Part shown: positions 1,304-22,466 of the stretch, in pieces | Position numbering within the stretch: position 1 is the first letter of the stretch | Layout of the letters: each line of letters begins with the position of its first letter | From: a virus | Length of the DNA stretch: 23,608 nt | Direction: 5' to 3' (one strand) | Virus record (IMG/VR): IMGVR_UViG_3300045538_000326 | Location: 1 to 23,608 of that record | Notes under the pieces: model-generated | Databases searched by the model: none | Told to the model about the DNA's origin: nothing | The model's input: the letters and a program-made list of their open reading frames with translations, nothing else | Made by a program: the position numbers and the translations under genes

Positions 1304-1304
1304 G

Positions 1305-4300: not shown

Positions 4301-5735
4301 TGGAATAACTGGTATAGCTGGGACATCCGGAAGTAGCGGAAGCAGTGGAACTTCTGGATCATCTGGAACTTCTGGAACTTCTGGAATAAAAGGACTTGAT
4401 GGTTCATCGGGAACTTCTGGATCAAGTGGAACTTCTGGTCAAAGTGGATCTTCAGGAAGTTCTGGAACATCTGGTAGTAGTGGTAGTAGTGGAATGGGAG
4501 GAACTGCAGGAACATCGGGAAATACTGGAACTGCTGGTTCATCTGGAACTTCTGGTGCAAATGGAACTTCTGGAACTTCTGGCCAAAATGGAACTTCTGG
4601 AACATCTGGATTTAATGGTTCATCCGGAACATCAGGTTCATCTGGAACTTCTGGATCATCTGGATCATCTGGATCATCTGGAACTGCTGGATTATCTGGT
4701 GACAAATACTCAACAACGTCTACTGATGTAATAGATTTAGATACCGTAAGTGGAAATATAACTATAACGATTGGAACTGGATTATCTTATATTGCTGGTC
4801 AAAACATAGTTGTTTCTTATGATGCTAATAATAAAATAATAGGAACAGTTGTAACATACACATCCGGAACGGGTTCACTAACATTTACAGTAAATGAGGT
4901 AATTGGTAATGGAACATATAGTGTTTGGAGAGTTTCGATTGCGGCTCTTAATGGAACATCTGGAACTTCTGGATCATCAGGAACATCTGGTAGTAGTGGA
5001 TCATCAGGAACATCTGGTAGTAGTGGTTCATCTGGAACTTCTGGAACTTCTGGAACCTCTGGAATTTCAGGTTCATCTGGAACTTCCGGAATAGATGGAA
5101 CTTCTGGATCATCCGGAACATCTGGTCAAAGAGGGACTTCTGGAACATCTGGAACATCCGGTAATTCAGGAACTTCTGGATCATCTGGAACTTCTGGATC
5201 ATCTGGAACTTCTGGATCAAGTGGAACTTCTGGCTCATCAGGAACATCTGGTTCATCTGGTTCTTCTGGTAATAGTGGAAGTAGTGGTTTAGATGGAACA
5301 TCGGGAATTTCTGGAACATCTGGTAGTAGTGGTTCATCTGGAACATCCGGAACTTCTGGAACCTCTGGAGCAAGAGGTGTGGATGGCATAAACGGATCAT
5401 CTGGAACATCTGGTTCATCTGGAACAGCTGGAGTTACCGGTTCATCAGGAACATCTGGTTCTTCTGGAATCACCGGAACATCTGGAACCAGCGGTAATTC
5501 TACTGCTAAAGCCGGCAATATACAAGCTATAAATTTTACGGGATTACCAAGAACAGCTGCCGTAACATTTGGTACATCATTTAGTGATGCAAACTATGCA
5601 GTAACGGTTACAGGTGAAGACCAAAGAACATGGACAATTCAAGCCAAAACAGCAGCAGGTTTTACTATAAATTCAAATGCAAATGATGCATTGACTGGAC
5701 CAACATATTGGATTGCTATTCCGTATGTATCATAA
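1305..5735 (+). CDS. Giant collagen-like tail fibre / virion structural protein (1476 aa)
   Basis: Residues 1-739 are a beta-rich, low-cysteine region with no family I can name, presumably the virion-attachment part. Then come three Gly-X-Y arrays (about 130, 184 and 180 residues) in which X and Y are almost always Ser or Thr, with some Gln-Asn, Gln-Thr or Glu-Asn. They are separated by two related domains of about 79 and 84 residues (from Asp870 and Asp1133, both opening DKY[TS]TTST). The last 80 residues (from about 1397) form a compact domain containing GEDQRTWTIQAKT and INSNAND, a type I recognise at the C-terminus of phage fibres and would take as a trimerisation or receptor-binding tip. 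The length, repeats and company of other fibre genes support a tail-fibre role. The ATG is one base after the preceding stop. Function is inferred from architecture, not from a full-length homologue. Confidence 0.85.
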   Translation: MVEYKRLKRNLINIATQFVDNSELSPNFFNITSIPNYFTAGKNSFKIKPNFNYLSQNYPIYIEVLDANGNNVFHHVTTADEADGTKIVSVYVYRTVALGSGTITFIGTSNFDSKLNRLTQTEVKQNNIRFVYKIGVDKFKPNDNDIIFENTPEVSITEKKYSVIEDRFNGSSKKTTKTGTVRYSLESGTPKLFSLGETFNDNYVGATISFPYLSDEHTPLTTYTTTSFDYSASIISVDNNYSMTLDNRLSLIGTDGEVTDLTTSEVQPYFLSYNQNSTGKNITQNVKNYARIDINKIDPAVGHVSRVKVFAKSKNDPSADYKTLYDANIEPKNILIDSSSLIIDYEIGKFSVAANATIAGQPSTFSLNSLNYWSVESVNGAPTPSTALYNTDKFTGIEATLSIGALTDNQALLIAQSSSVSTPYYKDTLYQVDFDAYRYRPSNDKRDPKLEVYISGSGFNGDTEYGKYVGTIELNNTDSQFSLNNSLSIAPDKDGDGHLKFLVHTGVVLQNIEVKETVEFGFTPKRTTIYVPMDQNHKLEYMDFKLQYFNDTLRESNVETVNNDVFFEGGNVYIQGDDNMISGSTFLSSYTQSGMQLYANANNTPGSSGSAINPYQYQGVQNAINNPNNPSSFGWGLTTGNPYNQAAGTFSQNSINMINECGSTFNFGSTPSSFDLFILGSSSEFLLGWSGSYNPVFGSGGTGGGGSCNNGTCGESYIRWDGCKVIIENAVINGSTSGAGSAGTHGTSGTSGTSGQTGSSGTSGQNGSSGTSGQNGSSGSSGTSGQTGSSGTSGQTGSSGTSGNSGSSGSSGTSGENGSSGTSGENGSSGSSGTSGISGLQGNSGTSGSSGSSGTSGSNGTSGTAGLSGDKYTTTSTTSNTIGTGSKTFTVDTGLQLSVGQNVIAAYNSSNKMEGDITSYNSGTGQLVINVTITTGSGTYSTWSVSLSGSPGPQGTGGTSGTSGTSGTSGSSGTSGTSGQNGSSGTSGQNGSSGTSGSSGITGIAGTSGSSGSSGTSGSSGTSGTSGIKGLDGSSGTSGSSGTSGQSGSSGSSGTSGSSGSSGMGGTAGTSGNTGTAGSSGTSGANGTSGTSGQNGTSGTSGFNGSSGTSGSSGTSGSSGSSGSSGTAGLSGDKYSTTSTDVIDLDTVSGNITITIGTGLSYIAGQNIVVSYDANNKIIGTVVTYTSGTGSLTFTVNEVIGNGTYSVWRVSIAALNGTSGTSGSSGTSGSSGSSGTSGSSGSSGTSGTSGTSGISGSSGTSGIDGTSGSSGTSGQRGTSGTSGTSGNSGTSGSSGTSGSSGTSGSSGTSGSSGTSGSSGSSGNSGSSGLDGTSGISGTSGSSGSSGTSGTSGTSGARGVDGINGSSGTSGSSGTAGVTGSSGTSGSSGITGTSGTSGNSTAKAGNIQAINFTGLPRTAAVTFGTSFSDANYAVTVTGEDQRTWTIQAKTAAGFTINSNANDALTGPTYWIAIPYVS
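3522..3911 (+). repeat. Collagen-like Gly-X-Y array 1 of the first fibre gene
   Basis: About 130 codons with glycine at every third position; typical triplets are GTS, GSS, GQN, GQT and GEN. Synonymous codons are well mixed (TCT, TCA, TCC, TCG, AGT), so the protein repeat is much more regular than the DNA repeat. Confidence 0.93.
3912..4148 (+). repeat. Inter-array domain, copy 1 (79 codons)
   Basis: Encodes a non-collagenous domain opening DKYTTTST and closing TYSTWSVSLS, with VDTGL, VGQN and SGTG in between. It is homologous to the copy at 4701-4952. From memory this domain type occurs between collagen-like segments in other phage fibres, perhaps as a trimer-registering knot. Confidence 0.8.
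4149..4700 (+). repeat. Collagen-like Gly-X-Y array 2 of the first fibre gene
   Basis: About 184 codons of Gly-X-Y. It opens with GSPGPQ, which holds the only prolines seen in the three arrays; the rest is chiefly GTS, GSS and GQN triplets. Confidence 0.93.
4701..4952 (+). repeat. Inter-array domain, copy 2 (84 codons)
   Basis: Opens DKYSTTST and closes TYSVWRVSIAAL. It shares the AGQN/VGQN, SGTG and GTYS motifs with the copy at 3912-4148 but has diverged clearly at DNA level, so the duplication is old. Confidence 0.8.
4953..5492 (+). repeat. Collagen-like Gly-X-Y array 3 of the first fibre gene
   Basis: About 180 codons of Gly-X-Y, mostly GTS and GSS, with a few charged interruptions such as GQR, GAR and GVD-GIN. 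It leads directly into the C-terminal domain. Confidence 0.93.
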
Positions 5736-5756
5736 TTAAATTTTAATCAATATATT

Positions 5757-5759
5757 GGG
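5757..5759 (+). promoter_or_regulatory. Weak ribosome binding site deciding the start at 5767
   Basis: A GGG lies 7 bases before ATG 5767. The in-frame TTG at 5755 overlaps it and has no such site, so ATG 5767 is the better start. Confidence 0.4.
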
Positions 5760-5766
5760 TATAAAA

Positions 5767-6951
5767 ATGCCACCATTATACGTAAGTTCAGGTAGTTTTG
5801 ATAATTTTGAAGTAACCGCTTCCGCAGTTTTATCAGGAAGCACAACTATACTTAGCGGTAGTTTAACTGGTTCAATATCTGGATCACTTAATGGTTATTC
5901 TGGATCTCTTAGTTGGTTAGATACTTTTGCTAGTTCATCAAATATACTATCCGCATCATTTAATACATTAACTGGATCATTCAATATATTATCTAGTTCA
6001 TTTAAGAAAATAACAGGATCATCGGATGTTGCAATATATGTATCTGGATCAAATACTGTTGGTGGTCCTACATATATTGATTTTCTAAAAGTATCTAATT
6101 CTACACCTGCCGTTGCAAATCCAAATAAAACATTTAGATTAGATAATGCAGGAACATTGCAGATAATAGATAGTTCGTATTTGAACAATATATGGTCACT
6201 TACTGATGCTGGGATTGTAAAAATACCGAGTGCTGCCGGTAAACAAACACAATTAAAGGCAACGGGAAGTGTAATAAGTTTTAATAATGATGGTGGTCAG
6301 ATATTCGATGACGGCAATTTTCACATACATAGTTTGAATCCAGATGGTTCTTTTTGGTTGAATGCATCTGGATCCGGTAAATTGATAATAAATGCACAAA
6401 CTGGTGCAACTGGTGGCGTTTTAATAGGAACACAAACTCAAGCAGGATATGTGACGATAAATGGAAGTGCTAATGTAAATTATTCATACGCATATTTAGC
6501 AAATATCGTTCCTGCACCATATACTGGAACTTCTTCTGGATTGTCACCATATTCATTAACTGCAAATGCACGAATACAGGCATCAGAATTTAATGCAACA
6601 TCCGATGAAAGACTTAAAAACATAATAGGTAAAATAAAATTAGCAGATGCTATTAGGTTTATCAAGGGTGTTGATTCTATTCAATTTACTTGGAAAGATG
6701 AATTGGATAAGGGAATTAAAACGGGATATTCTGCCCAACAACTTGTAAAAATGGGTTTTGATCATTTAGTTGGTGGTGTTCCAAAACCAGGATTAGAGGA
6801 AACAATAGATAATGATGGATTTATTTCACCAGAGGATATTCAACTTGTAGTAAACAATGATCAAATAACACCGTATCATAGTTTATTGATACAACATCTT
6901 TTAGAAAGAATAGAAAATTTGGAAAAAAGGTTGTTAGATTCAAATAATTGA
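5767..6951 (+). CDS. Tail spike/fibre protein with C-terminal peptidase S74 chaperone domain (394 aa)
   Basis: The first 278 residues are Ser/Gly/Thr-rich with short repeating beta motifs (LSGS, LTGSF, ASSSNI) followed by a more complex region. The C-terminal 116 residues match the intramolecular chaperone of endosialidase-type tail spikes (peptidase S74): ATSDERLKNI with the Ser279/Lys284 dyad spaced five apart, then GYSAQQL, a Pro-His-Ser segment and a C-terminal coiled coil (LLERIENLEKRLL). In this family the chaperone trimerises and folds the fibre, then cuts itself off just before the serine. The mature product would thus be about 278 residues. Start at ATG 5767 is preferred over TTG 5755 because of the GGG spacing. 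It sits between two structural genes and is very probably part of the tail or its receptor-binding apparatus. Confidence 0.85.
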   Translation: MPPLYVSSGSFDNFEVTASAVLSGSTTILSGSLTGSISGSLNGYSGSLSWLDTFASSSNILSASFNTLTGSFNILSSSFKKITGSSDVAIYVSGSNTVGGPTYIDFLKVSNSTPAVANPNKTFRLDNAGTLQIIDSSYLNNIWSLTDAGIVKIPSAAGKQTQLKATGSVISFNNDGGQIFDDGNFHIHSLNPDGSFWLNASGSGKLIINAQTGATGGVLIGTQTQAGYVTINGSANVNYSYAYLANIVPAPYTGTSSGLSPYSLTANARIQASEFNATSDERLKNIIGKIKLADAIRFIKGVDSIQFTWKDELDKGIKTGYSAQQLVKMGFDHLVGGVPKPGLEETIDNDGFISPEDIQLVVNNDQITPYHSLLIQHLLERIENLEKRLLDSNN

Positions 6952-8524: not shown

Positions 8525-8548
8525 ACAACTCAAATTTTGGAGAATTAA

Positions 8549-9736
8549 ATGGCAACGTGGAAAAAACTTATAGTATCGGGTAGTGTAGCCGAACTTGCAT
8601 CGGTGAGTGCATCGGTTGGAGTGTTAGTCGGTACTAATCAACAAATTCAAACAACCCAGGCAAATACCCGTCTTACTGGTTCTTTCACAGGTTCATTTGC
8701 CGGTGATGGTAGTGGATTAACAAATGTAACTGCAACTGCAACATTTCCTGCAGTTGAAATTACTAATTTAACATCCGGTAACAAATTTTTTACAAGTGAT
8801 GGGACAAATTCATTTACAACCTATGGAAATCTTTTAACAGATCTTGCAGGTAGTGGTATATCAGTTGAAGGAACAGATAGTCTTTCTGTTAATTCAGGAT
8901 CATTACAAACATTTTTCAATTCATCATCTTATGCGGGTGTAAGTGGTGATATTCTCATCGATGCATCAACTGGTGTTGCATCTATACAAGCTAATTCAGT
9001 TGCATTAGGAACTGACACAACTGGTAATTATGTTGCTACTGTTTCCGGTTCTGGTGCTATTGTGTCAAGTGCAACAACTGGAGAAGGAAGCACACCCGAA
9101 ATTACTTTGAATACTGCATCAACAACATTTACAAGTGGTGTTGTTTCTGCTCTTCCTGCTGGAACAGTTAGTGGTTCATCACTAACAACTGGTGGTCAAG
9201 GTAGTGTAACACTTACAACAAATGGTGTTGCTCAAACTGTTGATTTAGGATTGGAACAATCTGATAGTCCAACATTCGTTGATTTAACATTGACCGGTGA
9301 TATTACTGTTGGTGGACAAGACATTAAATCGAATGGTGGAACAACCGCAATTACTTTGAATGGTGCAAATGCAACTGTTGCTGGAAATCTTACTGTTTCC
9401 GGTGATTTATCCGTTGTTGGTAGTGTAACTGAATTTCAAGTTGCAAACTTAAATGTTGAAGACCAATTTGCATTACTCGCATCTGGATCGGGAACAACTG
9501 ATGCTGGTATTATTGCTGCTTCCGGTTCTATAAATGCTGGTTCAGCACTATATCACGATATTACAGATAATAGATGGGCAGTTGCAAAGTCTGTTGCATC
9601 TAATGCTACTGCTGTTACACCACTTGAATATGTTACAACTGTTAAAGTTCAATCGGGTGTTCCATCAACACAAGAATATGGTGTTGGGGAAATGTATGTA
9701 AATACTGATAACGGTGAAATTTTTATTTACACATAA
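8549..9736 (+). CDS. Fibre-like structural protein with WKKLIVSGS N-terminal motif (395 aa)
   Basis: Opens MATWKKLIVSGSVAELASV, close to the N-terminus of the giant fibre at 16298 (MSNWKKLVVSGSGAHLASV), so the two probably attach to the same virion partner. A GDGSGLTNV motif (52-60) also occurs in the preceding protein. The middle is repetitive Ser/Thr/Gly/Val beta-type sequence (LTGDITVGG, LTVSGDLSVVGS). The C-terminal 100 residues (from about VTEFQVANLNVEDQF) form a more complex end domain with a DNRWAVAK segment. A good Shine-Dalgarno GGAG (8539-8542) lies 6 bases before the ATG. I take it as a virion structural protein, most likely tail fibre or baseplate-proximal fibre; no enzymatic motif is visible. 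Confidence 0.75.
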   Translation: MATWKKLIVSGSVAELASVSASVGVLVGTNQQIQTTQANTRLTGSFTGSFAGDGSGLTNVTATATFPAVEITNLTSGNKFFTSDGTNSFTTYGNLLTDLAGSGISVEGTDSLSVNSGSLQTFFNSSSYAGVSGDILIDASTGVASIQANSVALGTDTTGNYVATVSGSGAIVSSATTGEGSTPEITLNTASTTFTSGVVSALPAGTVSGSSLTTGGQGSVTLTTNGVAQTVDLGLEQSDSPTFVDLTLTGDITVGGQDIKSNGGTTAITLNGANATVAGNLTVSGDLSVVGSVTEFQVANLNVEDQFALLASGSGTTDAGIIAASGSINAGSALYHDITDNRWAVAKSVASNATAVTPLEYVTTVKVQSGVPSTQEYGVGEMYVNTDNGEIFIYT

Positions 9737-10722: not shown

Positions 10723-13308
10723 GTGAAAAAAGTTTTGTTTATTGTCCCCCATCTTTCAACGGGTGGACTGCCTCAATATACACTATCACTAATAAAAAAA
10801 ATAATGAACGATGTTGATGTCTACTGTATAGAGTATTCTATGATAGCAGACATTTTTGTTGTTCAAAGAAAACAAATAGTTGAATTATTAGGCGATAAGT
10901 TTTATTCTCTTAAAAACGAAAAAGAAGAATTGAATGAAATTGTAGATAAAATACAACCAGATATAGTTCATTTACAAGAACTTCCAGAGTATTTTATGTC
11001 TGGATATGTTGCTAATGATTTATATTCTATTGATAGAAAATACACTATCGTTGAAACTTCTCACGATTCTTCTTTTGATACAAAAAAGAAGTTATATTTT
11101 CCAGATTATTTTGCACTAATATCCGAATACCAAAGACAAAATTTTTCAAAATTAGATATACCGATACAGATTGTTGAATCAGACATAGAGTATAAAGAGA
11201 GAGGAGATAGAAGAACTGGTTTGGAAAAATTAGGTTTGAATCCAAGTCTAAAACACGTTTTGAATGTTGGTTTATTTTCGCCAAGAAAAAATCAAAGAGA
11301 GATTTTTGATTATGCAAAAAATATGTTAAACTATCCAGTGCAGTTTCATTTTGTTGGTAATCAAGCTTCAAATTTTGAAAACTATTGGTCTCCGTTGATG
11401 AAAGATATTCCATCTAATGTTAAAATTTGGGGTGAAAAATCTAACGTTGATGACTTTTATTCTTGTATGGATTTATTTCTATTTACATCAAGGGGTTCGG
11501 AACATGACAAAGAAACAAGTCCACTTGTTATACGAGAGGCAATAGGGCATGGTATTCCGTCTTTAATATACAATCTTCCAGTTTATATGGATATGTATAA
11601 CAAATATGACATAATAAATTATCTTGATTTTGAAAACAAGGAAAAAAATCTATCCTTGATAATAGACAAACTAGGATTTTCAACCGATCATATAGACAAA
11701 AAATTAGTTGAAGATACAATATCTGAAAGTAGATTTACAGTTGAATATGATAATAAAGAAAATAAAATTACATATTCATATAATCGTGATTTAGAAAATG
11801 TAATAATTTCTGTAAAAGATATAGATTCTAATGTTGTTATGTGGTCGGTGAAACATGATAGATACGAAAATAATCAAAAATTTTGGACAATACCTATACC
11901 AAAAAATTATTACGATTGTGAAACCGAACCTACTTTTGGTGGTTTTAATGTTGAGATATACTCGAATGGTAAGTTTTTGGATAGCAAACGTATTCGTATA
12001 AAAAATCCAAGTGTTGAAAAACCATTTATACATCTTAAAAATACAACAGAACCTACTTTTTTCAATTACAATGAATTTTTTATTGATAAGATATATGATC
12101 CTTATCTAAAAGGAAAAAATTTTAATACGGTTGTTGATGTTGGTGCAAATGTTGGTATGTGGATAGAATACATACGAAGTGTATCAAACGTAGAAAAAGT
12201 TTATGCAGTTGAACCAAATACAAATGCATTGAAAACTTTAAGGGATTCTTTTAATGATATAAATGTTGTAGATGCCGCATTGCATTACGAAGATGGTAAA
12301 TTGAGTTTGTATACCCATGATAATAACTCAACTGTATCTTCGATAGAAAATCACTCTACATTTTCCTCAACATATTCGGTTGATGCAATAACTTTGAAAA
12401 CATTTGTAAAGCAAAATAAAATTGAAAAAATAGATTTACTTAAAGTTGATATAGAATCTGCTGAATACGATTTGTTTAATTCATTTGATTCCGAAGATTT
12501 TTTAATAATAGATAATATATTGGTAGAATATCATTTGCTTGGAAACCGATATATGAAAGATGTTTTTGATTTATCATCAATGTTAGAAGAAAATGGATAT
12601 AAAACTAATATGAGAAATATGAACTCTGTTGGTGGTTTTATCTTTGCAACAAAAAATAAAAAGTCTACCGTTGGTAATGATGAAGATATTATTCGTGTTT
12701 TAGATTCAAACCCTTGTCCCGAAAAAAGAGATATTGCAAATCTTGTAAACCGTTTATATCCAAATGGTGTTGGTATAGAGATAGGTGTTCTTCGTGGCGA
12801 TTACTCAAAAATAATTTTAGATAGATGGCACAATGGGACTTTATACATGGTAGATACTTGGAGACATATTCCAGAGTATATCGATTTGAATGGTAGGGAT
12901 GACGAATATCATTATGAGTGTATGATACAAACTGCTAAATCTATAAAAGACCATCAACATCGTGCTCACATGATACGAATGGATAGCGTTAAATGTGCTG
13001 AACTTTTTCCGGATGAATACTTTGATTTCATTTATATTGACGCAGATCATTCTTATGAGGCCGTCCAAAGAGATTTACAAGTTTGGTGGCCAAAGGTAAA
13101 AAAGGGAGGATTGTTTACAGGAGATGATTATATTCCAGAAGACGGAGATATTTGGTTGATTAACAATAATGATGGGACAAAAAAATATGCTGGGAAATTT
13201 GGTGTTCGTAAGGCAGTAAATGAATTTGCCGATGAACATAAATTAAAAATATATTCAACAACACAAGAACCATATTGGAAACAATGGTATACTTTCAAAC
13301 CTTTTTAA
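10723..13308 (+). CDS. Three-domain GT-B glycosyltransferase / FkbM methyltransferase / Methyltransf_24 fusion (861 aa)
   Basis: Residues 1-330 are a GT4-like glycosyltransferase: KVLFIVPHLSTGGLPQYT start, VLNVGLFSPRKNQ hinge and an E-X7-E motif at Glu264/Glu272 before GHGIPSLIYN. Residues 335-450 are a beta-rich linker. Residues about 455-650 match FkbM-type methyltransferases: VVDVGANVG SAM site (470-478), YAVEPN, and LLKVDIESAE (573-581, Asp576). Residues about 675-861 are a second class I methyltransferase, Methyltransf_24 type: EIGVLRGD (686-693), MVDTW, YIDADHSYEAV (771-781), KKGGLFTGDDY. One polypeptide could therefore add a sugar and methylate it or a neighbouring group twice; acceptor and sugar are unknown. 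GTG start is supported by AAAGG. It heads a cassette with two more glycosyltransferases. Confidence 0.87.
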   Translation: MKKVLFIVPHLSTGGLPQYTLSLIKKIMNDVDVYCIEYSMIADIFVVQRKQIVELLGDKFYSLKNEKEELNEIVDKIQPDIVHLQELPEYFMSGYVANDLYSIDRKYTIVETSHDSSFDTKKKLYFPDYFALISEYQRQNFSKLDIPIQIVESDIEYKERGDRRTGLEKLGLNPSLKHVLNVGLFSPRKNQREIFDYAKNMLNYPVQFHFVGNQASNFENYWSPLMKDIPSNVKIWGEKSNVDDFYSCMDLFLFTSRGSEHDKETSPLVIREAIGHGIPSLIYNLPVYMDMYNKYDIINYLDFENKEKNLSLIIDKLGFSTDHIDKKLVEDTISESRFTVEYDNKENKITYSYNRDLENVIISVKDIDSNVVMWSVKHDRYENNQKFWTIPIPKNYYDCETEPTFGGFNVEIYSNGKFLDSKRIRIKNPSVEKPFIHLKNTTEPTFFNYNEFFIDKIYDPYLKGKNFNTVVDVGANVGMWIEYIRSVSNVEKVYAVEPNTNALKTLRDSFNDINVVDAALHYEDGKLSLYTHDNNSTVSSIENHSTFSSTYSVDAITLKTFVKQNKIEKIDLLKVDIESAEYDLFNSFDSEDFLIIDNILVEYHLLGNRYMKDVFDLSSMLEENGYKTNMRNMNSVGGFIFATKNKKSTVGNDEDIIRVLDSNPCPEKRDIANLVNRLYPNGVGIEIGVLRGDYSKIILDRWHNGTLYMVDTWRHIPEYIDLNGRDDEYHYECMIQTAKSIKDHQHRAHMIRMDSVKCAELFPDEYFDFIYIDADHSYEAVQRDLQVWWPKVKKGGLFTGDDYIPEDGDIWLINNNDGTKKYAGKFGVRKAVNEFADEHKLKIYSTTQEPYWKQWYTFKPF

Positions 13309-13320
13309 TGGAAATATATT

Positions 13321-14139
13321 ATGGTAGTATTTTTGTATAGTGATAAAAATTGTGAACATCAAGCGATATGTTGTATCAAATCATTGACACATAAAATAAC
13401 GGATGATGTAAAAATAGTTTATTACACAATAGGATTTGATAGTGATTTTCAATTTAAGAATCTCCACAAAATTAGAATTGAATTGAAACCAGAATATCCA
13501 ACATTTCATTACTATAAATCAGATTTATCATTACTTACTATGAATCTGTTTCCAAATGAACACTATATTTTTACAGATACAGATGTTCTTTTTTCTCGAA
13601 GATTTGATTTTAGTAAAACAACTCATATTGAAAATTATCCAATAGCAAGTTATGGTCCACATGAATATCCATTTATGTATTATGAAGAAAATGGATCTAG
13701 AATAATTTTTAATGAATTACCTTTAATGAAGTATTTTAATGTTGAAAAAAGAAGTCAAAGGTATGTTTGGTCTTGTTTCTATTCATTCAATCCAAGTTGT
13801 AAAGACTTTTTTGAAGAATACATTTCAATATGTAAAAATAAATACCTTATGGATAAAAGAAAAGACTATTTTCCTTATGCAGATGAGACACCTTTTAATA
13901 TATGTCTGTGGAAAAGAAATGCTACTAAAAACTATGAATTTGGTTTTGTCAATACTCATCGCTTGGAAACAGTTAAAGCAGTAGAAAACGGTATATCAAA
14001 TAAAACTTTTGAGAATGCAGTTGATAGACTTGGTAATGAGTGGGAATACGTTGTTGATTCTGAAAAGGTTTTGATATATCATGGATTCAAAGAAAAAGAT
14101 AGTATGGTTGAATCGTTAAATTATTTGATAAACATATAA
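13321..14139 (+). CDS. GT-A-fold glycosyltransferase, GT8-like (272 aa)
   Basis: The N-terminus alternates beta strands and helices as in nucleotide-sugar binding GT-A folds (VVFLYSDKNCEHQAICCIKS). A DXD metal/UDP-sugar motif appears as FTDTDVLFS (Asp86-Thr-Asp88). Later segments WSCFYSFNPSC, YADETPFNICLW and a C-terminal LIYHGF histidine resemble the acceptor side and the metal-binding histidine of GT8-like retaining transferases. Exact family, donor and acceptor cannot be settled by eye. It starts 12 bases after the preceding gene, with a weak leader (TGGAAATATATT) like that of the RCC1 gene, and is followed at 12 bases by another glycosyltransferase, so all three are probably one transcript. 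Confidence 0.7.
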   Translation: MVVFLYSDKNCEHQAICCIKSLTHKITDDVKIVYYTIGFDSDFQFKNLHKIRIELKPEYPTFHYYKSDLSLLTMNLFPNEHYIFTDTDVLFSRRFDFSKTTHIENYPIASYGPHEYPFMYYEENGSRIIFNELPLMKYFNVEKRSQRYVWSCFYSFNPSCKDFFEEYISICKNKYLMDKRKDYFPYADETPFNICLWKRNATKNYEFGFVNTHRLETVKAVENGISNKTFENAVDRLGNEWEYVVDSEKVLIYHGFKEKDSMVESLNYLINI

Positions 14140-14151
14140 TTGGTTTTATTT

Positions 14152-16254
14152 ATGAAAATTGCACAAGTAAATTTAGGTTTACTTCCAATACCACCTAACT
14201 CGTGGGGAGCTGTTGAAAAAATAATTTGGGACTATAAAATTGAATTAGAAAAACTCGGTCATACTGTGTCTATACCATATTCAAATGAAGTTGAAAAAGA
14301 TATGTATGATATTGTTCATGTTCATGTATGGAATCATGCATTGGAAATGTATGAAAAAGGAATACCTTACATATTTACTTGTCATGATCATCATTTATAT
14401 TTGAATGGGAAAGATACAAAAATGTATCAAGATAATTTAAGAGCAATGAGATTGGCTCAAATTGCATTTGTTCCTGCAAAGTATTTAGTTGATTATTTTG
14501 ATAATGTTCCTGTTTATTTGGAACATGGTGTTAGAATAGATAATTTTGTTGAAAATACACCGAATAAAAAACCAAGATTGTTATGTGTTGGTAATAATGG
14601 TCTGGCTAATGATGATTTATTTGATAGGAAAGGATTTAGATATGCAATAGAAGCTGCTAAAAAATTAGATATGAATGTAACAGTTGTTGGTCCAACAAAT
14701 GTAAACAAAAAATTTTTTGAACATAACAAAGATTTGACAGAAGATAATGTGACTATTTTATACGATTTAGATGATAAAAATTTAATAGACACATTCAGTA
14801 AACATGATATTCTTGTTCATGCAACATCAGTAGAAGCCGGTCATCCTCCACTTACGATACTAGAAGCGGCGGCATCTGGATTACCAGTATTAACAACAGA
14901 TTGTTCTGGTGATTTACATACAACTTTGATAAATAGAGATTCAAATGATGTTGTTGAAAAAATAAAATATGTAATGAAAAATTACAATCTTGAAAGAGAA
15001 AAAACTATTACTAGTGTTAAACAATTTGATTGGAAAAATGTTGTGAAAAAAATGAATAAAACATACGAAAAGGTTGTTACTAATGACATGAGAAGTTCAA
15101 TTCTCAATGTATATGATTCTGTTAAGAAAGTTAATTTTGAAAACAAAATAAATTTTTCTTTCAAAGAAGGTGCAATGGTAGAAATTACCGGACAAAAACA
15201 AGGAATTTATACAATATCATTCATAGATGACGATACAAACGAAGTTCTTTATCAAAATGATATTCTTACAAATTCTTGGGCAAAAACAAATAGAAGATAT
15301 TTTACAAATTGGAGAGTTGTTGTAACAGAAAACGGTGTAAAAAAGGCAGAACACAAATTAAATTTGAAGGGTAAAAAAGTTCTAATAAAATTAGATTCAA
15401 ATTGTCTTGGTGATACAATAGCTTGGTTTCCATATTTTGAAGAATTTAGAAAAAAACACCAATGTGATTTGTATGTGTTTACTTTTAATAATAAATTATT
15501 TGAAGGTAAATATCCAAAAATAACTTTTCTAAAAACAGTAAATGAAATACTTGCATTGGAAGATGTTTATGCGTCATACCTGATTGGTTGGTATTTTGAC
15601 ACAAAAAAAGGATATGATGATACTATAAATAAGATTCCTGGAAACAAAATACCACTTCAACAAGCTGCTTCTGATATTTTAGGATTGGATTTTGTTGAAA
15701 TAAAACCAAAATTAAAAGATTTGCCAGAATATATTACACCCAAACCTTATATTTGTATTGCAACAAATTCTACTGCTCAAGCTAAATTTTGGAATAATCC
15801 AACGGGTTGGCAAGAATTGGTTGATTATGTAAAATCGAAAGGGTATGACGTTTACCTTTTATCCAAAGAAGAAGATGGACACATGGGTAATAAACAACCA
15901 AATGGTGTAGTAAAAATCAGTAATAAAACACTTGAAGAAATTGGATCCATATTAAAGGGTTCAAAACTTTTTGTTGGTCTTGGTAGTGGTTTAACTTGGT
16001 ATTCTTGGGCACTAAATGTTCCAACTATATTGATAAGTGGGTTTTCTCAACCGTTTCAAGAAATGAAAGAGGGTATTACTCGTATAATAAATAATGATGT
16101 TTGTCATGGTTGTTTTGCTAAACATCTTTTTGACAAAGGAGATTGGAATTGGTGTCCAGAACACAAGGGAACAAATAGACAGTTTGAATGCACAAAGTTT
16201 ATTACTTTTGACATGGTTAAACCACATATTCAAAAAATACTAAAACTATCTTAA
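14152..16254 (+). CDS. GT4-like glycosyltransferase fused to TibC/Aah-like (BAHT) O-heptosyltransferase (700 aa)
   Basis: Residues 1-310 form a GT4-like GT-B domain: PPNSWGAVEKIIWDY, DIVHVHVWNH, RKGFRYAIEAAK and EAGHPPLTILEA (Glu228, Glu238) before SGLPVLTTD. Residues about 325-410 are a beta-rich segment (VEITGQKQGIYTISFID) typical of the N-terminal part of bacterial autotransporter heptosyltransferases. Residues about 410-700 match that GT9-related family: GDTIAWFPY (420-428), NSTAQAKFWNNPTGW (539-553), GLGSGLTWYSWAL (609-621), then a four-cysteine finger Cys651, Cys654, Cys668, Cys680 with GDWNWCP and RQFEC. Studied members (TibC, Aah) are iron-binding oligomers that move heptose from ADP-heptose to serines of autotransporter repeats. 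Start is ATG 14152; an in-frame TTG at 14140 overlaps the preceding stop region and lacks a site. Target is unknown; the flanking Ser-rich fibres are candidates. Confidence 0.88.
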   Translation: MKIAQVNLGLLPIPPNSWGAVEKIIWDYKIELEKLGHTVSIPYSNEVEKDMYDIVHVHVWNHALEMYEKGIPYIFTCHDHHLYLNGKDTKMYQDNLRAMRLAQIAFVPAKYLVDYFDNVPVYLEHGVRIDNFVENTPNKKPRLLCVGNNGLANDDLFDRKGFRYAIEAAKKLDMNVTVVGPTNVNKKFFEHNKDLTEDNVTILYDLDDKNLIDTFSKHDILVHATSVEAGHPPLTILEAAASGLPVLTTDCSGDLHTTLINRDSNDVVEKIKYVMKNYNLEREKTITSVKQFDWKNVVKKMNKTYEKVVTNDMRSSILNVYDSVKKVNFENKINFSFKEGAMVEITGQKQGIYTISFIDDDTNEVLYQNDILTNSWAKTNRRYFTNWRVVVTENGVKKAEHKLNLKGKKVLIKLDSNCLGDTIAWFPYFEEFRKKHQCDLYVFTFNNKLFEGKYPKITFLKTVNEILALEDVYASYLIGWYFDTKKGYDDTINKIPGNKIPLQQAASDILGLDFVEIKPKLKDLPEYITPKPYICIATNSTAQAKFWNNPTGWQELVDYVKSKGYDVYLLSKEEDGHMGNKQPNGVVKISNKTLEEIGSILKGSKLFVGLGSGLTWYSWALNVPTILISGFSQPFQEMKEGITRIINNDVCHGCFAKHLFDKGDWNWCPEHKGTNRQFECTKFITFDMVKPHIQKILKLS

Positions 16255-16297: not shown

Positions 16298-19200
16298 TTG
16301 TCTAATTGGAAAAAACTTGTAGTAAGTGGTAGTGGAGCACATCTTGCATCTGTAACTGCTTCTAATGGTTCTATCATATCCGGTTCACTCACCATGAGTG
16401 GATCTATAGTAAATGTTGATTACATAGATTTCATAGAAGCAACCGAAAATAAAGTTCCTGCAGAACTTCCAGGACGAATTTATTATGATAGTGAAGAAGA
16501 TGCTTTAACCGTTTATAGTAATATAGCAGATACCCAATTATATGTTGGTCAAGAAGAACATTATCTTGTAAAAAATAATTCAGGTACAACAATAAATGTT
16601 GGACAGTTAGTTATGTTTTCTGGATCAATCGGTAATTCTGGAAGATTAACCACCCAACTATGTGACCAAACAAAGTTGCCATCATCAGTTTATGTGATGG
16701 GAATTGCCGCTAATACAATGAATAACGGTGATGATGGTTTTGTAATTAACTTTGGTAAAGTAAAGGGTATAGATGCAACAGGAACTCCTGTTAGCCAAAC
16801 ATGGAATAATGGTGATATATTGTATGTTCACCCAACAATTCCTGGTGCTCTAACAAATCAAACACCATCCGAAGGCAAATGGAAACTGATAGTTGCTGCC
16901 GTAGTAAATAACACTGCAAATGGAACTATATTCGTAAGATTAACACCTGCAAATAACATCGGTGAATTGGATAATGTAACCGATAATAGTAGCACAAACG
17001 GTGACTTGCTGATTAAAAGCGGTTCGGTTTGGAAAAATTCAAAACAATTAACTGGTTCGTATGGTGTAACTGGTTCGATGGACATTACTGGTTCACTGAT
17101 AATAAACGGAACAAGTTATACTGCGGCAAGTTCTGGAACAAGTGGAACTGCAGGTTCATCCGGAACTGCAGGTTCTTCTGGAACTGCAGGTTCTTCTGGA
17201 ACATCTGGCTCATCCGGAACTGCAGGTTCTTCTGGAACTTCTGGTGCAAATGGAAGTTCTGGTTCATCTGGAAGTAGTGGAACATCTGGAGTATCTGGAT
17301 CATCTGGTTCATCTGGAACCTCTGGTGCAAATGGAAGTAGTGGTAGTTCTGGAACAAGTGGAACTGGTTTTACAACGGTATCAAATGCTGCTGATAACAG
17401 AATACTAACATCCGATGGTAGTTCAAATGCTGCTGTTGCAGAAAGTAATTTAACTTTTAACGGTTCAACATTGACCGTTACCGGTGATGCTGTTATTACC
17501 GGAAAAATAACTGCTCAAGAATTTCATACCGAATTTGTATCTTCATCTATATTATTTGAAAGTGGTTCAACAAAATTTGGTGATACATTAGACGACTTGC
17601 ATCAAGTAACCGGTTCAATGAGTATTACCGGTTCCTTGATAATAAATGGAACAAGTTATACTGCTGCTACATCGGGAACATCTGGAACTTCTGGTGCTAA
17701 TGGAAGTAGTGGAACATCCGGTTCATCTGGAACTTCTGGTTCATCGGGAACATCTGGTTCATCTGGAACTTCTGGTTCATCGGGAACATCTGGTTCATCT
17801 GGAACTTCTGGTGCTAATGGTGCTAATGGTTCATCGGGAACATCGGGTTCATCAGGAACATCTGGTTCATCAGGAACTTCTGGTGCTAATGGTGCTAATG
17901 GTTCATCGGGAACATCTGGTTCATCGGGAACATCTGGTTCATCTGGAACTTCTGGTGCTAATGGTGCTAATGGTTCATCGGGAACATCGGGTTCATCAGG
18001 AACTTCTGGTGCTAATGGAACATCGGGTTCATCAGGAACTTCTGGTGCTAATGGAACATCGGGTTCATCAGGAACTTCTGGTGCTAATGGAACTTCTGGT
18101 TCATCTGGTTCATCAGGAACTTCTGGTGCTAATGGAACTTCTGGTTCATCAGGAACATCGGGTTCATCTGGAACTTCTGGTGCAAATGGAAGTAGTGGTA
18201 GTTCTGGAACAAGTGGAACTGGATTTAATACTATAAACGGTCCTTTATCTGGAAGAGTCCTAATATCCAATGGAACAACTAATGCTGCTACTGCTTCGGT
18301 AAATTTAACATTTGATGGATCAACTTTAACCGTAACTGGAAATACAGTTGTTAGTGGAAGAATAACTGCTCAAGAATTTCACACACAATTTGTTTCCGCT
18401 TCAATTCTTTTCAGAAGTGGTTCAACAAAATTTGGTGATACATTAGACGATATTCACCAAATAACTGGTTCAATGTCAATAACTGGATCACTTCAAATTC
18501 CTCGATACGCAAGCAATCCAACTGCTTTACTCGGTGGAATTTACTACAATACAGGTGATAATAACATTTATCGTTCAAACGGATCAACTTGGTCATCAGC
18601 TGCTGGATCAAGTGGAACTTCTGGTTCATCTGGAACATCAGGTTCATCTGGAACTTCTGGTGCTAACGGTTCTTCGGGAACATCGGGAGTAAATGGTGCA
18701 GCTGGTTCATCAGGAACTTCCGGTTCTTCTGGAACTTCTGGTTCATCAGGAACTTCTGGTGCTAATGGAACATCGGGTTCATCAGGAACTTCTGGTGCTA
18801 ATGGAACTTCTGGTTCATCCGGAACATCTGGTGCTAATGGTGCTAATGGAACTTCCGGTTCATCTGGAACTTCTGGTGCTAATGGTGCTAATGGAACTTC
18901 CGGTTCATCAGGAACATCTGGTGCTAATGGTGCTAATGGTTCATCGGGAACATCTGGTTCATCCGGAACTTCTGGTGCTAATGGTGCTAATGGAACATCG
19001 GGTTCATCAGGAACTTCTGGTGCTAATGGAACTTCTGGTTCATCTGGTTCATCTGGAACATCTGGTGCTAATGGTGCTAATGGAACTTCTGGTTCATCTG
19101 GTTCATCTGGAACATCTGGTGCTAATGGTGCTGCTGGTGCTGCTGGTGCTGCTGGTTCTTCTGGAACTTCTGGTTCATCTGGAACATCTGGAAACACCGG

Positions 19201-19756
19201 TGTTTCTGGATCAAGTGGAACATCAGGAACATCAGGAACAGTAACATTATCTGGAACAACAGACAATGGTGTTATTACACTAAACGGTTCATCACCTAAT
19301 GCAACGGTAGAATCAAACTTAACATTTGATGGATCAACATTGGTGCTTACAGGATCAATGTCATTAAGTGGTTCCAAAGAAATTCAATATCCAACATTAG
19401 TTTCCTATACAGAAAAAATAAATATAGTATCTTCAAGTAATGCTGTTAGCGGTAATCTAACAATAAACTATCGTGATGGAAATGTTATTTTACATCATCA
19501 CAATGCAAGTTTAACAAATGTTACATTTACAAATGTTCCTGCTGCTGGTTCTGCTGCTAGTTTAACTTGGATGGTTAAAGGAACTAATGGATTATATGGT
19601 TTAAGTCCAGGTTCCGAAGTTCAATGGGAAAGTGGAAATGCTCCAAGTATACCATCAACAGATAATGAGATTTCAATTTTTACTTTAATGACAATAGATG
19701 GTGGTTCAACATGGCTAGGTATAGTTGTTGCTGAAAACCAAGCTAATTTAACGTAA
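16298..19756 (+). CDS. Second giant collagen-like tail fibre protein (1152 aa)
   Basis: The N-terminus MSNWKKLVVSGSGAHLASV is shared with the protein at 8549. Residues about 50-245 include a domain I recognise from phage fibres (EEHYLVKNNSGTTINVGQLV, MGIAANTMNNGDDGFV, WNNGDILYVHPT). Three Gly-X-Y arrays follow (77, 182 and 212 residues), separated by two modules of the form LTFxGSTLTVTG / ITAQEFHT / FGDTLDDxHQxTGS, homologous to the repeats in the protein at 6983. The last 170 residues (INYRDGNVILHHHNASLTN, ASLTWMVKG, DGGSTWLGIVV) are a common phage fibre C-terminal domain, probably the distal tip. TTG start is supported by GGAG at 7 bases. It lies directly downstream of the glycosyltransferase cassette and upstream of an RCC1 propeller. 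A tail-fibre role is strongly suggested by architecture. Confidence 0.85.
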   Translation: MSNWKKLVVSGSGAHLASVTASNGSIISGSLTMSGSIVNVDYIDFIEATENKVPAELPGRIYYDSEEDALTVYSNIADTQLYVGQEEHYLVKNNSGTTINVGQLVMFSGSIGNSGRLTTQLCDQTKLPSSVYVMGIAANTMNNGDDGFVINFGKVKGIDATGTPVSQTWNNGDILYVHPTIPGALTNQTPSEGKWKLIVAAVVNNTANGTIFVRLTPANNIGELDNVTDNSSTNGDLLIKSGSVWKNSKQLTGSYGVTGSMDITGSLIINGTSYTAASSGTSGTAGSSGTAGSSGTAGSSGTSGSSGTAGSSGTSGANGSSGSSGSSGTSGVSGSSGSSGTSGANGSSGSSGTSGTGFTTVSNAADNRILTSDGSSNAAVAESNLTFNGSTLTVTGDAVITGKITAQEFHTEFVSSSILFESGSTKFGDTLDDLHQVTGSMSITGSLIINGTSYTAATSGTSGTSGANGSSGTSGSSGTSGSSGTSGSSGTSGSSGTSGSSGTSGANGANGSSGTSGSSGTSGSSGTSGANGANGSSGTSGSSGTSGSSGTSGANGANGSSGTSGSSGTSGANGTSGSSGTSGANGTSGSSGTSGANGTSGSSGSSGTSGANGTSGSSGTSGSSGTSGANGSSGSSGTSGTGFNTINGPLSGRVLISNGTTNAATASVNLTFDGSTLTVTGNTVVSGRITAQEFHTQFVSASILFRSGSTKFGDTLDDIHQITGSMSITGSLQIPRYASNPTALLGGIYYNTGDNNIYRSNGSTWSSAAGSSGTSGSSGTSGSSGTSGANGSSGTSGVNGAAGSSGTSGSSGTSGSSGTSGANGTSGSSGTSGANGTSGSSGTSGANGANGTSGSSGTSGANGANGTSGSSGTSGANGANGSSGTSGSSGTSGANGANGTSGSSGTSGANGTSGSSGSSGTSGANGANGTSGSSGSSGTSGANGAAGAAGAAGSSGTSGSSGTSGNTGVSGSSGTSGTSGTVTLSGTTDNGVITLNGSSPNATVESNLTFDGSTLVLTGSMSLSGSKEIQYPTLVSYTEKINIVSSSNAVSGNLTINYRDGNVILHHHNASLTNVTFTNVPAAGSAASLTWMVKGTNGLYGLSPGSEVQWESGNAPSIPSTDNEISIFTLMTIDGGSTWLGIVVAENQANLT
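17135..17365 (+). repeat. Collagen-like Gly-X-Y array 1 of the second fibre gene
   Basis: About 77 codons; triplets GTA, GSS, GTS and GAN. A TCTGGAACTGCAGGTTC-type block is repeated near-perfectly at its start. Confidence 0.92.
17507..17635 (+). repeat. FGDT/HQxTGS module, copy 4 (43 codons)
   Basis: ITAQEFHTEFVSSS to HQVTGSMSITGS; same scheme as the 45-codon units at 7331, 7766 and 8225. Confidence 0.85.
17675..18220 (+). repeat. Collagen-like Gly-X-Y array 2 of the second fibre gene, with 72- and 36-base units
   Basis: About 182 codons. Copies of a block opening GGTGCTAATGGTGCTAATGG start at 17810, 17882 and 17954, exactly 72 bases (24 residues) apart. Two identical tandem 36-base units (GANGTSGSSGTS) fill 18008-18043 and 18044-18079. 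Confidence 0.93.
18362..18490 (+). repeat. FGDT/HQxTGS module, copy 5 (43 codons)
   Basis: ITAQEFHTQFVSAS to HQITGSMSITGS; the same length as copy 4 and very similar to it. Confidence 0.85.
18605..19240 (+). repeat. Collagen-like Gly-X-Y array 3 of the second fibre gene, with 45-base units
   Basis: About 212 codons. Blocks opening GGTGCTAATGGTGCTAATGG start at 18830, 18875 and 18920, exactly 45 bases (15 residues) apart. The 36-base unit of array 2 recurs from 18758. A short GAA triplet run (GAAGAAGAAG) lies near 19125-19150. Confidence 0.93.
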
Positions 19757-19780: not shown

Positions 19781-20935
19781 ATGTTAGCAGATAGATTAAG
19801 AAATTCACCTATAAGAGATTATCTTGTTTCATATAATTTATATTCTTGGGGTGAGAATGGTAGTGGTGAACTTGGTATAGGTAACACCACAGATAAAAGT
19901 TCACCAAACCAAGTTGGTTCTGAAACAAGATGGACAGATATATCATCAGGAACTCACGATGACGTTGGAAAACAACATTCTCTTGCTATAGATAATAACC
20001 AAAGATTATGGGCATGGGGTGAGAATGGTAATGGTCAGTTGGGTATAGGTAACACAACTGATAAAAGTTCACCAATACAAGTTGGAACCGATAAATGGTT
20101 AAAAATTAGTGCTGGTTACGCAGTTAGTCATGGTATAAAGCATGATAATACCCTATGGGGCTGGGGATATTGGAACAACAGCAATATCGGTAGTGGATCA
20201 TTTTCTGATGTAACAACCCCATCTCAGATATTAAGTGGTTCGGGCGATTATTGGATAGAAGTTTCAAGTAGATACAATCATTCATTTGCTATTACTAATG
20301 TGGGTGTGCTTTTTACATGGGGAACTGATCTATATGGTGAAACGGGATTGGGTTATGGTCCACCAGTATTGACAACCATTTCAACGCCAGAGACAGTTAC
20401 ACCAACTCCTGAGTTAGGATGGAAAATAGCTTCTGCTGGTAATCGATTCAGTCTTGCAATACAAAATGATGGAACACTTTGGGCATGGGGCGAAGATACC
20501 TATGGTCAGATTGGACTGAATGGCGGCGGTAGTGGAATGGGATATGAAAGTGTTCCAGTTCAAGTTGGTGCACTAACAACATGGAAAAATGTATCAGCCG
20601 GAGGCGGACATTCTTTAGCATTAAAAAATGATGGAACTATTTGGTCATGGGGATATAATGGTAATGGTCAATTAGGACATGGTGATACAACGGATAGAAG
20701 TTCACCAACACAAATAGGAAGTGCAACTGATTGGGTTGATATAAGTGCTGGATATGAGTTTTCTCTGGCACTCAAATCCGATGGAAGTTTGTATGCTTGG
20801 GGATTGAATAATATAGGACAATTAGGCGATGGATCAACAACTACTAGATTAACACCAAGACAAATTGGAACAAACACTATAAAATATAGAAATATAGATG
20901 CTGGTTTTGATTATTCTATGGGATTACGAGAATAA
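19781..20935 (+). CDS. Seven-bladed RCC1-repeat beta-propeller protein (384 aa)
   Basis: Seven RCC1-type blades are visible, each with an aromatic-Ser/Ala/Gly/Thr-Trp-Gly core: Trp23, 79, 128, 180, 236, 290 and 340, spaced 49-56 residues. The motifs are of the form LWAWGENGNGQLG followed by SSPxQVG and WxxISAG/HSLAI. Seven blades make one complete propeller, with essentially nothing else but a 19-residue N-terminal lead. Eukaryotic RCC1 is a GTPase exchange factor, but bacterial and phage versions more often serve as binding scaffolds. Between two fibre/glycosylation genes a virion adhesin or host-protein binder is the likeliest role. Blades 1 and 2 are recently duplicated at DNA level. ATG 19781 has a weak leader TTTGGTAATATATT, like that at 13321. 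Confidence 0.87.
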   Translation: MLADRLRNSPIRDYLVSYNLYSWGENGSGELGIGNTTDKSSPNQVGSETRWTDISSGTHDDVGKQHSLAIDNNQRLWAWGENGNGQLGIGNTTDKSSPIQVGTDKWLKISAGYAVSHGIKHDNTLWGWGYWNNSNIGSGSFSDVTTPSQILSGSGDYWIEVSSRYNHSFAITNVGVLFTWGTDLYGETGLGYGPPVLTTISTPETVTPTPELGWKIASAGNRFSLAIQNDGTLWAWGEDTYGQIGLNGGGSGMGYESVPVQVGALTTWKNVSAGGGHSLALKNDGTIWSWGYNGNGQLGHGDTTDRSSPTQIGSATDWVDISAGYEFSLALKSDGSLYAWGLNNIGQLGDGSTTTRLTPRQIGTNTIKYRNIDAGFDYSMGLRE

Positions 20936-20939
20936 AGAT

Positions 20940-20944
20940 AAAGG
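20940..20944 (+). promoter_or_regulatory. Ribosome binding site deciding the start at 20952
   Basis: AAAGG, 7 bases before ATG 20952. The same frame is open upstream to 20898 but overlaps the RCC1 gene and has no site, so 20952 is preferred. Confidence 0.6.
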
Positions 20945-20951
20945 TTTTGTT

Positions 20952-21965
20952 ATGGTAGTAAAAGAAGAAATGCATCCGTTAGATATTGCATTGCAGTTTT
21001 GTATAAATGGAAATCCAACTGAAAGTGAAAATATATTGAAATCATTACCCAATAATGATCCAAGAGTGCTTTTTAATTTAGGATGGCATGAAATGCGCCA
21101 TGGAAATCTTAAAAAAGGTTTTGAATATATGAATTGTGGTCGTTTCATAAATGTATTCGGACTACCTGCACTTCCTGGAAAGATATGGAAAGACGAATCA
21201 CTTGAAAACAAAACGCTTCTTTTCAGATGCGAAGGTGGTTACGGTGATCAAATACTTAATTTTCGTTTTGCTAAAAGATTTCAAGAAATGGGTGCAAGGG
21301 TTTTAGTATCATGTGCACCAGAATTGAAAGCATTATTCTCCCGTCATGGATTTATCTGTGTTGATAACGAAGTAATAATGTGTGCACATTATGATTATTG
21401 GGTGCCTGCTATGTCAGCTGCATACGTTTTGGATATAGAATATGACAAATTAGATGGATCTGCATATATTTTTCCAAATAATCCATTAAATCTTTTTTCA
21501 AATGAAAAAAAATTAAAAGTAGGTATTCGTTGGAGTGGAAATCCTGAGTTTGAACACGAACAACATAGAAGATTTCCTCCGGAACTAATGATAGACTTAC
21601 ACAATACATCAAATACAACATTTTATTCACTTCAACGTGATAGTAACACAAAAAATGGTCTTCCATTTTCAGATATGGCAGATAAAATGAAAAGTTGGGA
21701 TGATACGGCAAACATAATTGCGGGTTTAGATTTAGTAATCACTTCATGCACTTCTATTGCTCATCTTGCCGCTGCTATGGGCATTCCAACGTGGATAGTT
21801 GTTCCAATAATGCCATATTATACATGGTCTTATCCGGGTGATAAGAGTTTTTGGTATAATTCCGTTACATTATTCAGACAGGAAGAATATGGAAATTGGG
21901 ATAAACCTTTCGATGATATAAAAAAAGAGTTAATTAAACTTGCTAATAACAAAACTTTTTTGTAA
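20952..21965 (+). CDS. TPR-containing GT9/GT41-like glycosyltransferase (337 aa)
   Basis: The N-terminal 80 residues look like one or two TPR helical pairs (PLDIALQFCINGNPTESENI, DPRVLFNLGWHEMRHGNLKK). A GT-B transferase follows with the phosphate-binding-type start EGGYGDQI (94-101), KVGIRWSGNPEFEHE in the middle, and ITSCTSIAHLAAAMGIP (His271) near the end, then LFRQEEYGNWD. This order is that of bacterial TPR-glycosyltransferases related to GT9 heptosyltransferases and GT41 O-GlcNAc transferase-like proteins. It is therefore a fourth sugar-transfer gene in the window and the second with a heptosyltransferase-like fold. TPRs often bind the protein acceptor, which fits a protein-glycosylating role, but donor and acceptor are unknown. 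Spacing of 16 bases to the RCC1 gene suggests one transcript. Confidence 0.75.
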   Translation: MVVKEEMHPLDIALQFCINGNPTESENILKSLPNNDPRVLFNLGWHEMRHGNLKKGFEYMNCGRFINVFGLPALPGKIWKDESLENKTLLFRCEGGYGDQILNFRFAKRFQEMGARVLVSCAPELKALFSRHGFICVDNEVIMCAHYDYWVPAMSAAYVLDIEYDKLDGSAYIFPNNPLNLFSNEKKLKVGIRWSGNPEFEHEQHRRFPPELMIDLHNTSNTTFYSLQRDSNTKNGLPFSDMADKMKSWDDTANIIAGLDLVITSCTSIAHLAAAMGIPTWIVVPIMPYYTWSYPGDKSFWYNSVTLFRQEEYGNWDKPFDDIKKELIKLANNKTFL

Positions 21966-22016: not shown

Positions 22017-22466
22017 ATGCAATACATCTATGTAGAAGATAATCAAGTTAAAGGATCTCCTAGTGAAATTCCTAAAAATTGGAAAAATATATCTAATTTT
22101 CATGCATTTGATGCAGAATTTTGGAAAATTCATGGCTGGTATCCGTATCGTTTTGTTAAAGTAGATGTTAATGATAACGAAGTATTAAATGGATCTAATG
22201 TAGTAATTGAAGAAAATGAAGTCGTTGAATATCAATTAAAGAGATTGAAAACCGAAGATGAAATACAAAATGAAATAAAAAGTGGATGGAGTAGAATTAG
22301 ACTTCAAAGAAATGAATTATTAAAAAGATGCGATTGGACACAATTACCAGATTCACCATTAAACTCACAAAAGAAAACGGAATGGCAAATTTATCGTCAG
22401 CATTTAAGAGATATAACAGATCAAGAAAATCCATTTTCTATATCATGGCCAATAAATCCAGAATAA
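22017..22466 (+). CDS. Tail-fibre assembly / tail assembly chaperone-like protein (149 aa)
   Basis: The N-terminal half is a small domain (QYIYVEDNQ, WKNISNFHAFD, WYPYRFVKV) of a kind seen in phage proteins encoded next to fibres. The C-terminal 55 residues follow the phage tail assembly chaperone pattern (Pfam PF16778-like): RNELLKRCDWTQLPDSPL (98-115), then Trp123, YRQHLRDIT (126-134) and a final SWPINP. Such proteins accompany tail-fibre genes and are thought to aid fibre or tail assembly; some are virion parts. Position a few kilobases downstream of two giant fibre genes agrees. A TAGAGA sequence shortly before the ATG is a plausible ribosome site. Confidence 0.75.
   Translation: MQYIYVEDNQVKGSPSEIPKNWKNISNFHAFDAEFWKIHGWYPYRFVKVDVNDNEVLNGSNVVIEENEVVEYQLKRLKTEDEIQNEIKSGWSRIRLQRNELLKRCDWTQLPDSPLNSQKKTEWQIYRQHLRDITDQENPFSISWPINPE

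Follow-up and report, generated by a model that had tools for sequence, protein, structure and literature searches.

The DNA analyzed here (the window) comprises positions 1 to 23,608 of the IMG/VR virus record IMGVR_UViG_3300045538_000326, 23,608 nucleotides in all. Its source is a freshwater-type tailed phage, and the gene under study lies in a myovirus-like tail-fibre module for host recognition (Table 1). It encodes a glycosyltransferase with a domain of the bacterial autotransporter heptosyltransferase (BAHT) family. Its open reading frame is intact, with an ATG at 14152 and a stop codon included in 16254. An alternative TTG start is found at 14140, four codons 5′ of the ATG; the alignment of PHROG 33732 to the ORF begins at the ATG. 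The tail-region setting proposed in the initial annotation was borne out by the tail assembly chaperone, the S74 tail fibre and the two collagen-like fibres found around the fusion gene.

Table 1. Features of the window around the GT4-BAHT gene
Feature	Coordinates	Strand	Evidence
Second collagen-like fibre, 1476 aa, Ser/Thr-rich; proposed substrate	1305..5735	+	PF01391, 218 bits
Tail fibre with S74 intramolecular chaperone	5755..6951	+	PF13884, tail-fibre PHROGs
GT4, FkbM methyltransferase and Methyltransf_24 in one ORF; candidate glycan-elongating/methylating partner	10723..13308	+	Domain matches
Putative GT-A transferase, TDTDVLF DxD-like motif; ends 12 bases upstream of the fusion	13321..14139	+	Sequence only
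GT4-BAHT fusion glycosyltransferase, 700 aa	14152..16254	+	ORF, Pfam, NCBIfam, AlphaFold2 model
N-terminal GT4 (GT-B fold) domain, residues 1-314, EAGHPPLTILEAAASG motif	14152..15093	+	PF00534/PF13692; Z 29 to tll1591
C-terminal TibC/Aah-type domain, residues 330-700: beta-barrel, GT-B core, finger cysteines	15139..16251	+	TIGR04414, 4rap, Z 41.7
Collagen-like fibre, 1152 aa, G-[T/S]-S repeats, next gene downstream of the fusion; proposed substrate	16298..19756	+	PF01391, 213 bits
Putative GT-B glycosyltransferase, weak GT9 similarity	20898..21965	+	PF01075, E 0.019, below cut-off
Phage tail assembly chaperone	22017..22466	+	PF16778, 68.5 bits

The product of the putative GT-A transferase gene had no match in Pfam, NCBIfam or PHROG. 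An RCC1-like beta-propeller protein (19781-20935; 303 bits) is encoded directly 3′ of the downstream collagen-like fibre. A cytidylyltransferase-like gene (22470-23213) was considered as a heptose nucleotidyltransferase, and this assignment found no support: the gene resembles one of Microcystis phage Mel-JY01 and, weakly, a cytidyltransferase PHROG.

The protein had been described as a GT4 domain fused to a TibC/Aah-like domain, and profile searches agree with this description. The N-terminal half matched PF00534 (Glycos_transf_1) with 45.7 bits (cut-off, 26.4), and residues 330-696 matched TIGR04414 (hepto_Aah_TibC) with 292.1 bits (E 5.5e-87; profile positions 9-374 of 374), the curated NCBIfam cut-off being 200 bits. 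Pfam likewise placed GT4 in the first half and a GT9-like similarity in the second. An AlphaFold2 model of the fusion, built from 50 phage sequences, had a mean pLDDT of 90.4; because its pTM was 0.57, the mutual placement of the two halves is not interpreted. The predicted N-terminal half adopts a GT-B fold close to that of the GT4 alpha-1,2-glucosyltransferase tll1591 (Z 29), and its EAGHPPLTILEAAASG motif is common to 13 of 16 aligned full-length fusions. At the EX7E position the GT4 half reads EAGHPPLTILE, with nine residues separating the two glutamates, and the same spacing is kept among phage relatives of this GT4-BAHT type.

Enzymes of the TibC/Aah type decorate bacterial adhesins with heptose. 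TibC and AAH make up the bacterial autotransporter heptosyltransferase family (TIGR04414; PDB 4rap, 4rb4; PMC4358343). TibC (4rap; E 6e-64) is the sole PDB relative that covers the whole C-terminal half, and the predicted half superposes on it with Z 41.7 and an rmsd of 1.9 Å over 359 residues (span, 331-700; target-normalised TM, 0.87), the finger lying inside the matched span. The N-terminal beta-barrel of this half scored 22.3 bits with PF21129 (TibC_1st), under the cut-off of 27; in the model, barrel strands are seen at 332-402, and the TibC superposition begins at residue 331. When BAHT and LPS heptosyltransferase profiles were compared, TIGR04414 was ahead of every one of the latter by more than 250 bits. 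The best of them, heptosyltransferase I (TIGR02193), remained below its cut-off (34.4 bits vs 185.3), heptosyltransferase III gave 20 bits, and PF01075 (GT9) gave 41. An ordinary LPS heptosyltransferase was thus excluded. As no partner autotransporter (strand-loop-strand adhesin) was detected among the scanned proteins of the window, itself a genome fragment, we assign the C-terminal half by its sequence to the TIGR04414 family and do not file it as an autotransporter heptosyltransferase.

Functional residues were transferred from the TibC paper (PMC4358343) by alignment. The motifs quoted in the initial annotation (NSTAQAKFWNNPTGW, GLGSGLTWYSWAL, GDWNWCP and RQFEC) all lie in the C-terminal half, and the cysteine finger it reported, C651-X2-C654-X13-C668-X11-C680, is intact. 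These cysteines align with C339, C342, C358 and C370 of TibC, are invariant in 55 of 55 distinct phage homologues and, judging from the alignment plus the whole-domain superposition, constitute a putative iron finger. Also invariant in the 55 homologues are D421, the equivalent of the catalytic base D110 of TibC, and T541, K545 and W616, which correspond to T226, K230 and W305, the residues that bind phosphate and heptose in TibC (PMC4358343).

Other positions have diverged. R286 of TibC contacts the adenine, is called highly conserved, and its mutation abolishes or strongly reduces TibC function (PMC4358343). Its equivalent in the window protein is I597; an Arg is found there in one of the 55 phage sequences and in 51 of 58 sequences from bacterial and archaeal assemblies. 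Arg286 is not among the criteria of the TIGR04414 model. P300 of TibC is replaced by Gly here and by Gly or Ser in nearly all phage sequences. The TibC dodecamer is built by a beta-hairpin thumb with two hydrophobic residues at its tip (PMC4358343); the thumb is shortened in the window protein, with H577-M578 at the tip, and absent from 36 of the 55 phage sequences. Since the adenine-contact Arg and most of the thumb have been lost in the viral clade, both the donor and the oligomer may differ from those of TibC.

At least 183 viral relatives of the C-terminal half were found in a scan of IMG/VR. INPHARED contains four, the closest being that of Mel-JY01 (57%). BAHT relatives with 35-40% identity are also present in three huge phages of 636-735 kb (LR756501.1, LR756503.1 and LR756504.1). 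A tree built from 112 sequences had a branch with SH-aLRT 100 that separated 56 phage and nine genome-assembly sequences from TibC and the canonical bacterial sequences; the tree is a single, quickly computed one, several of its branches are long, and its bacterial sample had been picked by similarity to the phage sequences. Members of the phage clade are mostly fused, either as GT4-BAHT or to GT9, FkbM or other methyltransferases, or sugar-binding DXD transferases, and some are unfused. No comparable fusion occurs in 46 canonical bacterial copies, whose extensions reach 98 aa at most, with one of 195 aa. The fusion recurs within a large viral clade and is no peculiarity of the window phage. 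Four records (G014, G058, G027 and G005) carry a second, shorter BAHT-like ORF after or near the main one; in the first three it stands in tandem and is missing about 80 positions at the start of the model, which correspond to the beta-barrel.

Phage BAHT sequences are already in databases under names such as 'Glycosyltransferase Aah/TibC'. One of them, A0A6J5SVC1 from an uncultured Caudovirales phage, was a structural match with a BAHT domain 40% identical to ours; it is known from its database name alone, and no description of a substrate or a fusion was found. The open-access literature, judged by title and snippet, yielded no description of phage BAHTs. The Mel-JY01 protein WWT39291, annotated as methyltransferase FkbM, resembles the window protein in its BAHT domain (57% identical), in the C-terminal position of this domain within a fusion, and in adjoining a collagen-like ORF and a cytidylyltransferase-like gene. 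It differs in size (1227 aa): where the window protein has a single GT4, the Mel-JY01 protein has a longer N-terminal part that carries an FkbM annotation. In the Mel-JY01 record (L082, PP395634.1), the collagen-like ORF (2-3052, 1016 aa, plus strand) is cut by the first base of the record. Two annotated hypothetical genes overlie it on the opposite strand and a CDS at 2519-3052 is in frame, so that misannotation is possible.

Collagen repeats (PF01391) were detected in 28 of 32 BAHT phage records, over the cut-off in 27; four BAHT phages (G008, G013, G030 and G031) have no collagen nearby or anywhere in the record. Presence alone turned out to be a poor guide. In 24 T4-like records selected by capsid, collagen was found in 5 of 7 with BAHT and in 7 of 17 without (P 0.37): aquatic T4-like phages commonly carry collagen-like genes without having BAHT. 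Mere presence was therefore dropped as proof of the substrate.

The informative variable is the composition of the collagen. Ser or Thr occupies 77-98% of the X/Y positions in 21 of 21 BAHT-positive loci (77% in the two fibres of the window, pooled), compared with 18-24% in 6 of 6 BAHT-negative T4-like records, where Gln, Ala, Pro and Lys are found instead. The negative controls are few and include near-duplicates, and some positive loci are closely related; when close relatives were roughly collapsed, to 18 vs 4 loci, Ser/Thr composition still separated the two sets fully. Viral collagen-like repeats as such fall into two compositional classes, one rich in Ser/Thr (66-98%) and another rich in Gln/Ala/Pro/Lys (less than 31% Ser/Thr).

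The association was also examined in reverse, starting from the collagen type. BAHT was present in 15 of 30 records with Ser/Thr-collagen and in 2 of 20 with GPQ-collagen (P 0.005); one of the two GPQ exceptions, G089, harbors both kinds of collagen. Limiting the test to contigs of 40-90 kb gave 6 of 19 vs 1 of 19 (P 0.09). The association is weaker when length is matched, and contig completeness therefore accounts for part of it. Collagen runs were absent from all 46 canonical bacterial BAHT loci; among 13 phage-clade or partial BAHT loci from genome assemblies, six had a Ser/Thr-collagen (65-87% Ser/Thr). In five records (G006, G014, G018, G021 and G026) the contig ends within a collagen gene near BAHT, as if the repeats broke the assembly.

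The reading that we favor, and that we consider probable, is that the window protein is a bifunctional protein glycosyltransferase that O-heptosylates the collagen-like fibres of its own phage, the GT4 half extending the glycan. The data establish the family and fold, the catalytic and finger residues, the fusion, the tail context, the association with Ser/Thr-collagen and the HldE-like genes found beside some relatives (see below); the substrate, the sugar and the order of the two steps are inferred. The TibC-type half would use a nucleotide donor to attach heptose, or a closely similar sugar, to the Ser/Thr hydroxyls of the G-(S/T)-(S/T) fibres. The fused GT4, aided by neighboring transferases and methyltransferases, would then extend or cap the glycan, and a single enzyme might in this manner build a two-step glycan. 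Glycosylated proline-poor collagens exist, and they provide the basis for thinking that a glycan might make up for the almost complete lack of proline in the repeats. The glycans would thus take the place of proline/hydroxyproline in stabilizing proline-poor triple helices, and might shield or tune the fibre.

The sugar admits another explanation: the protein-glycosylating role would be kept, and the loss of Arg would reflect a switch to a nucleotide sugar other than heptose. The Ile at position 597, the lack of Arg in 54 of the 55 phage sequences and the nearly general replacement of P300 by Gly or Ser are in favor of this view, which we deem unlikely in light of the invariant equivalents of T226, K230 and W305 and of the genes that directly follow BAHT in relatives likewise devoid of the Arg. 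In L010 and L012-L014, a gene resembling the HldE adenylyltransferase (TIGR02199) lies directly behind BAHT and is followed by one resembling the HldE kinase (TIGR02198); these are separate genes (11100-12225 in L010, 9504-10635 in L013). L006 has the HldE-like nucleotidyltransferase only, behind BAHT (11050-11496), and L052 has nucleotidyltransferase and kinase near BAHT on the opposite strand (12361-13483). All these matches are under the equivalog cut-offs. The idea that HldE domain II marks BAHT phages in general was rejected, since BAHT-negative records have it too, and HldE evidence was counted only as adjacency in one clade plus L052. No phage-encoded GmhA-type isomerase (SIS_2) was detected in 30 records. 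With these bounds, the HldE-like genes beside some BAHT copies suggest a heptose donor. The aligned relatives L006 and L009 also lack the adenine-contact Arg, and a single phage sequence in all retains it; for this reason, loss of the Arg appears compatible with a heptose donor, of which the base or the exact sugar may differ.

A rather unlikely alternative is that the acceptor is some virion protein other than the collagen (the capsid, the tail tube or a further fibre such as that encoded at 6983-9736), the collagen being linked to BAHT at the module level only. The nearest collagen lies at 10 kb or less from BAHT in 17 of 24 records tested, closer than expected from random placement (combined P 9e-7; four of the 24 records relied on partial lists). 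This counts in favor of the collagen-like fibres as acceptor, but such proximity may only mirror a shared host-recognition module. Three loci with BAHT (L042, L046 and L081) have no collagen nearby and carry other Ser/Thr-rich proteins (26-32%) close by. Mycobacteriophage virion glycosylation would be a comparable working if the substrate of the window enzyme is a virion protein; in the work cited in PMC12619734, however, the glycans are on capsid and tail-tube C-termini, not on collagen fibres. Linkage alone would not predict the contrast in Ser/Thr content between collagens with and without BAHT, which argues for the collagen-like fibres as substrate.

It is also quite improbable that the enzyme alters the host surface polysaccharide (LPS or O-chain) to block superinfection, the role commonly presumed for glycosyltransferases of phage host-recognition clusters. 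Clustered glycosyltransferases of pelagimyophages have been assigned to O-chain modification (PMC7029224), and the C-terminal half has the GT9 fold of LPS heptosyltransferases such as WaaC, with which it shares a GT-B fold and distant sequence similarity. The LPS enzymes, however, score 34 bits or less and are devoid of iron finger and beta-barrel, whereas the window domain retains both and tracks Ser/Thr-rich collagen fibres. A decayed, inactive homologue retained as a structural fusion, as the shortened thumb and the loss of R286 might indicate, is highly implausible given the intact ORF and the strict conservation of catalytic base, donor and finger residues over a diverse clade.

In summary of its relationship to TibC/AAH, the window protein shares a family score above the curated cut-off, the beta-barrel and GT-B core (Z 41.7), the four-Cys finger and the equivalents of D110, T226, K230 and W305. 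It differs in that it is phage-encoded and fused to GT4, has Ile for R286, Gly for P300 and a shortened thumb, belongs to a separate clade (SH-aLRT 100), and has Ser/Thr collagen fibres as its proposed partner instead of an autotransporter.

Phage glycosyltransferases are usually taken to act on DNA or on host LPS. The family of the enzyme described here modifies proteins, and the way the enzyme is distributed suggests a specific, abundant virion substrate. As a tentative generalization, which we view as possible but somewhat doubtful, a widespread clade of tailed phages might O-glycosylate their own proline-poor Ser/Thr collagen fibres by dedicated modular enzymes, made of a TibC-type initiator plus extending transferases and methyltransferases and sometimes accompanied by their own nucleotide-heptose genes, with sugar replacing hydroxyproline as stabilizer of the triple helix. 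Mel-JY01 is a cultured BAHT-positive phage, so that the question of the substrate is open to virion proteomics. If O-glycosylation of the fibres is true, it would offer a minimal system to produce O-glycosylated recombinant collagen-like protein. Many aquatic phages would then bear glycosylated collagen-like fibres, a matter of relevance to adsorption, to recognition by host and grazer and to the stability of the fibre. A virus that dresses its own surface in glycans by this route would be using a strategy that has been little explored.
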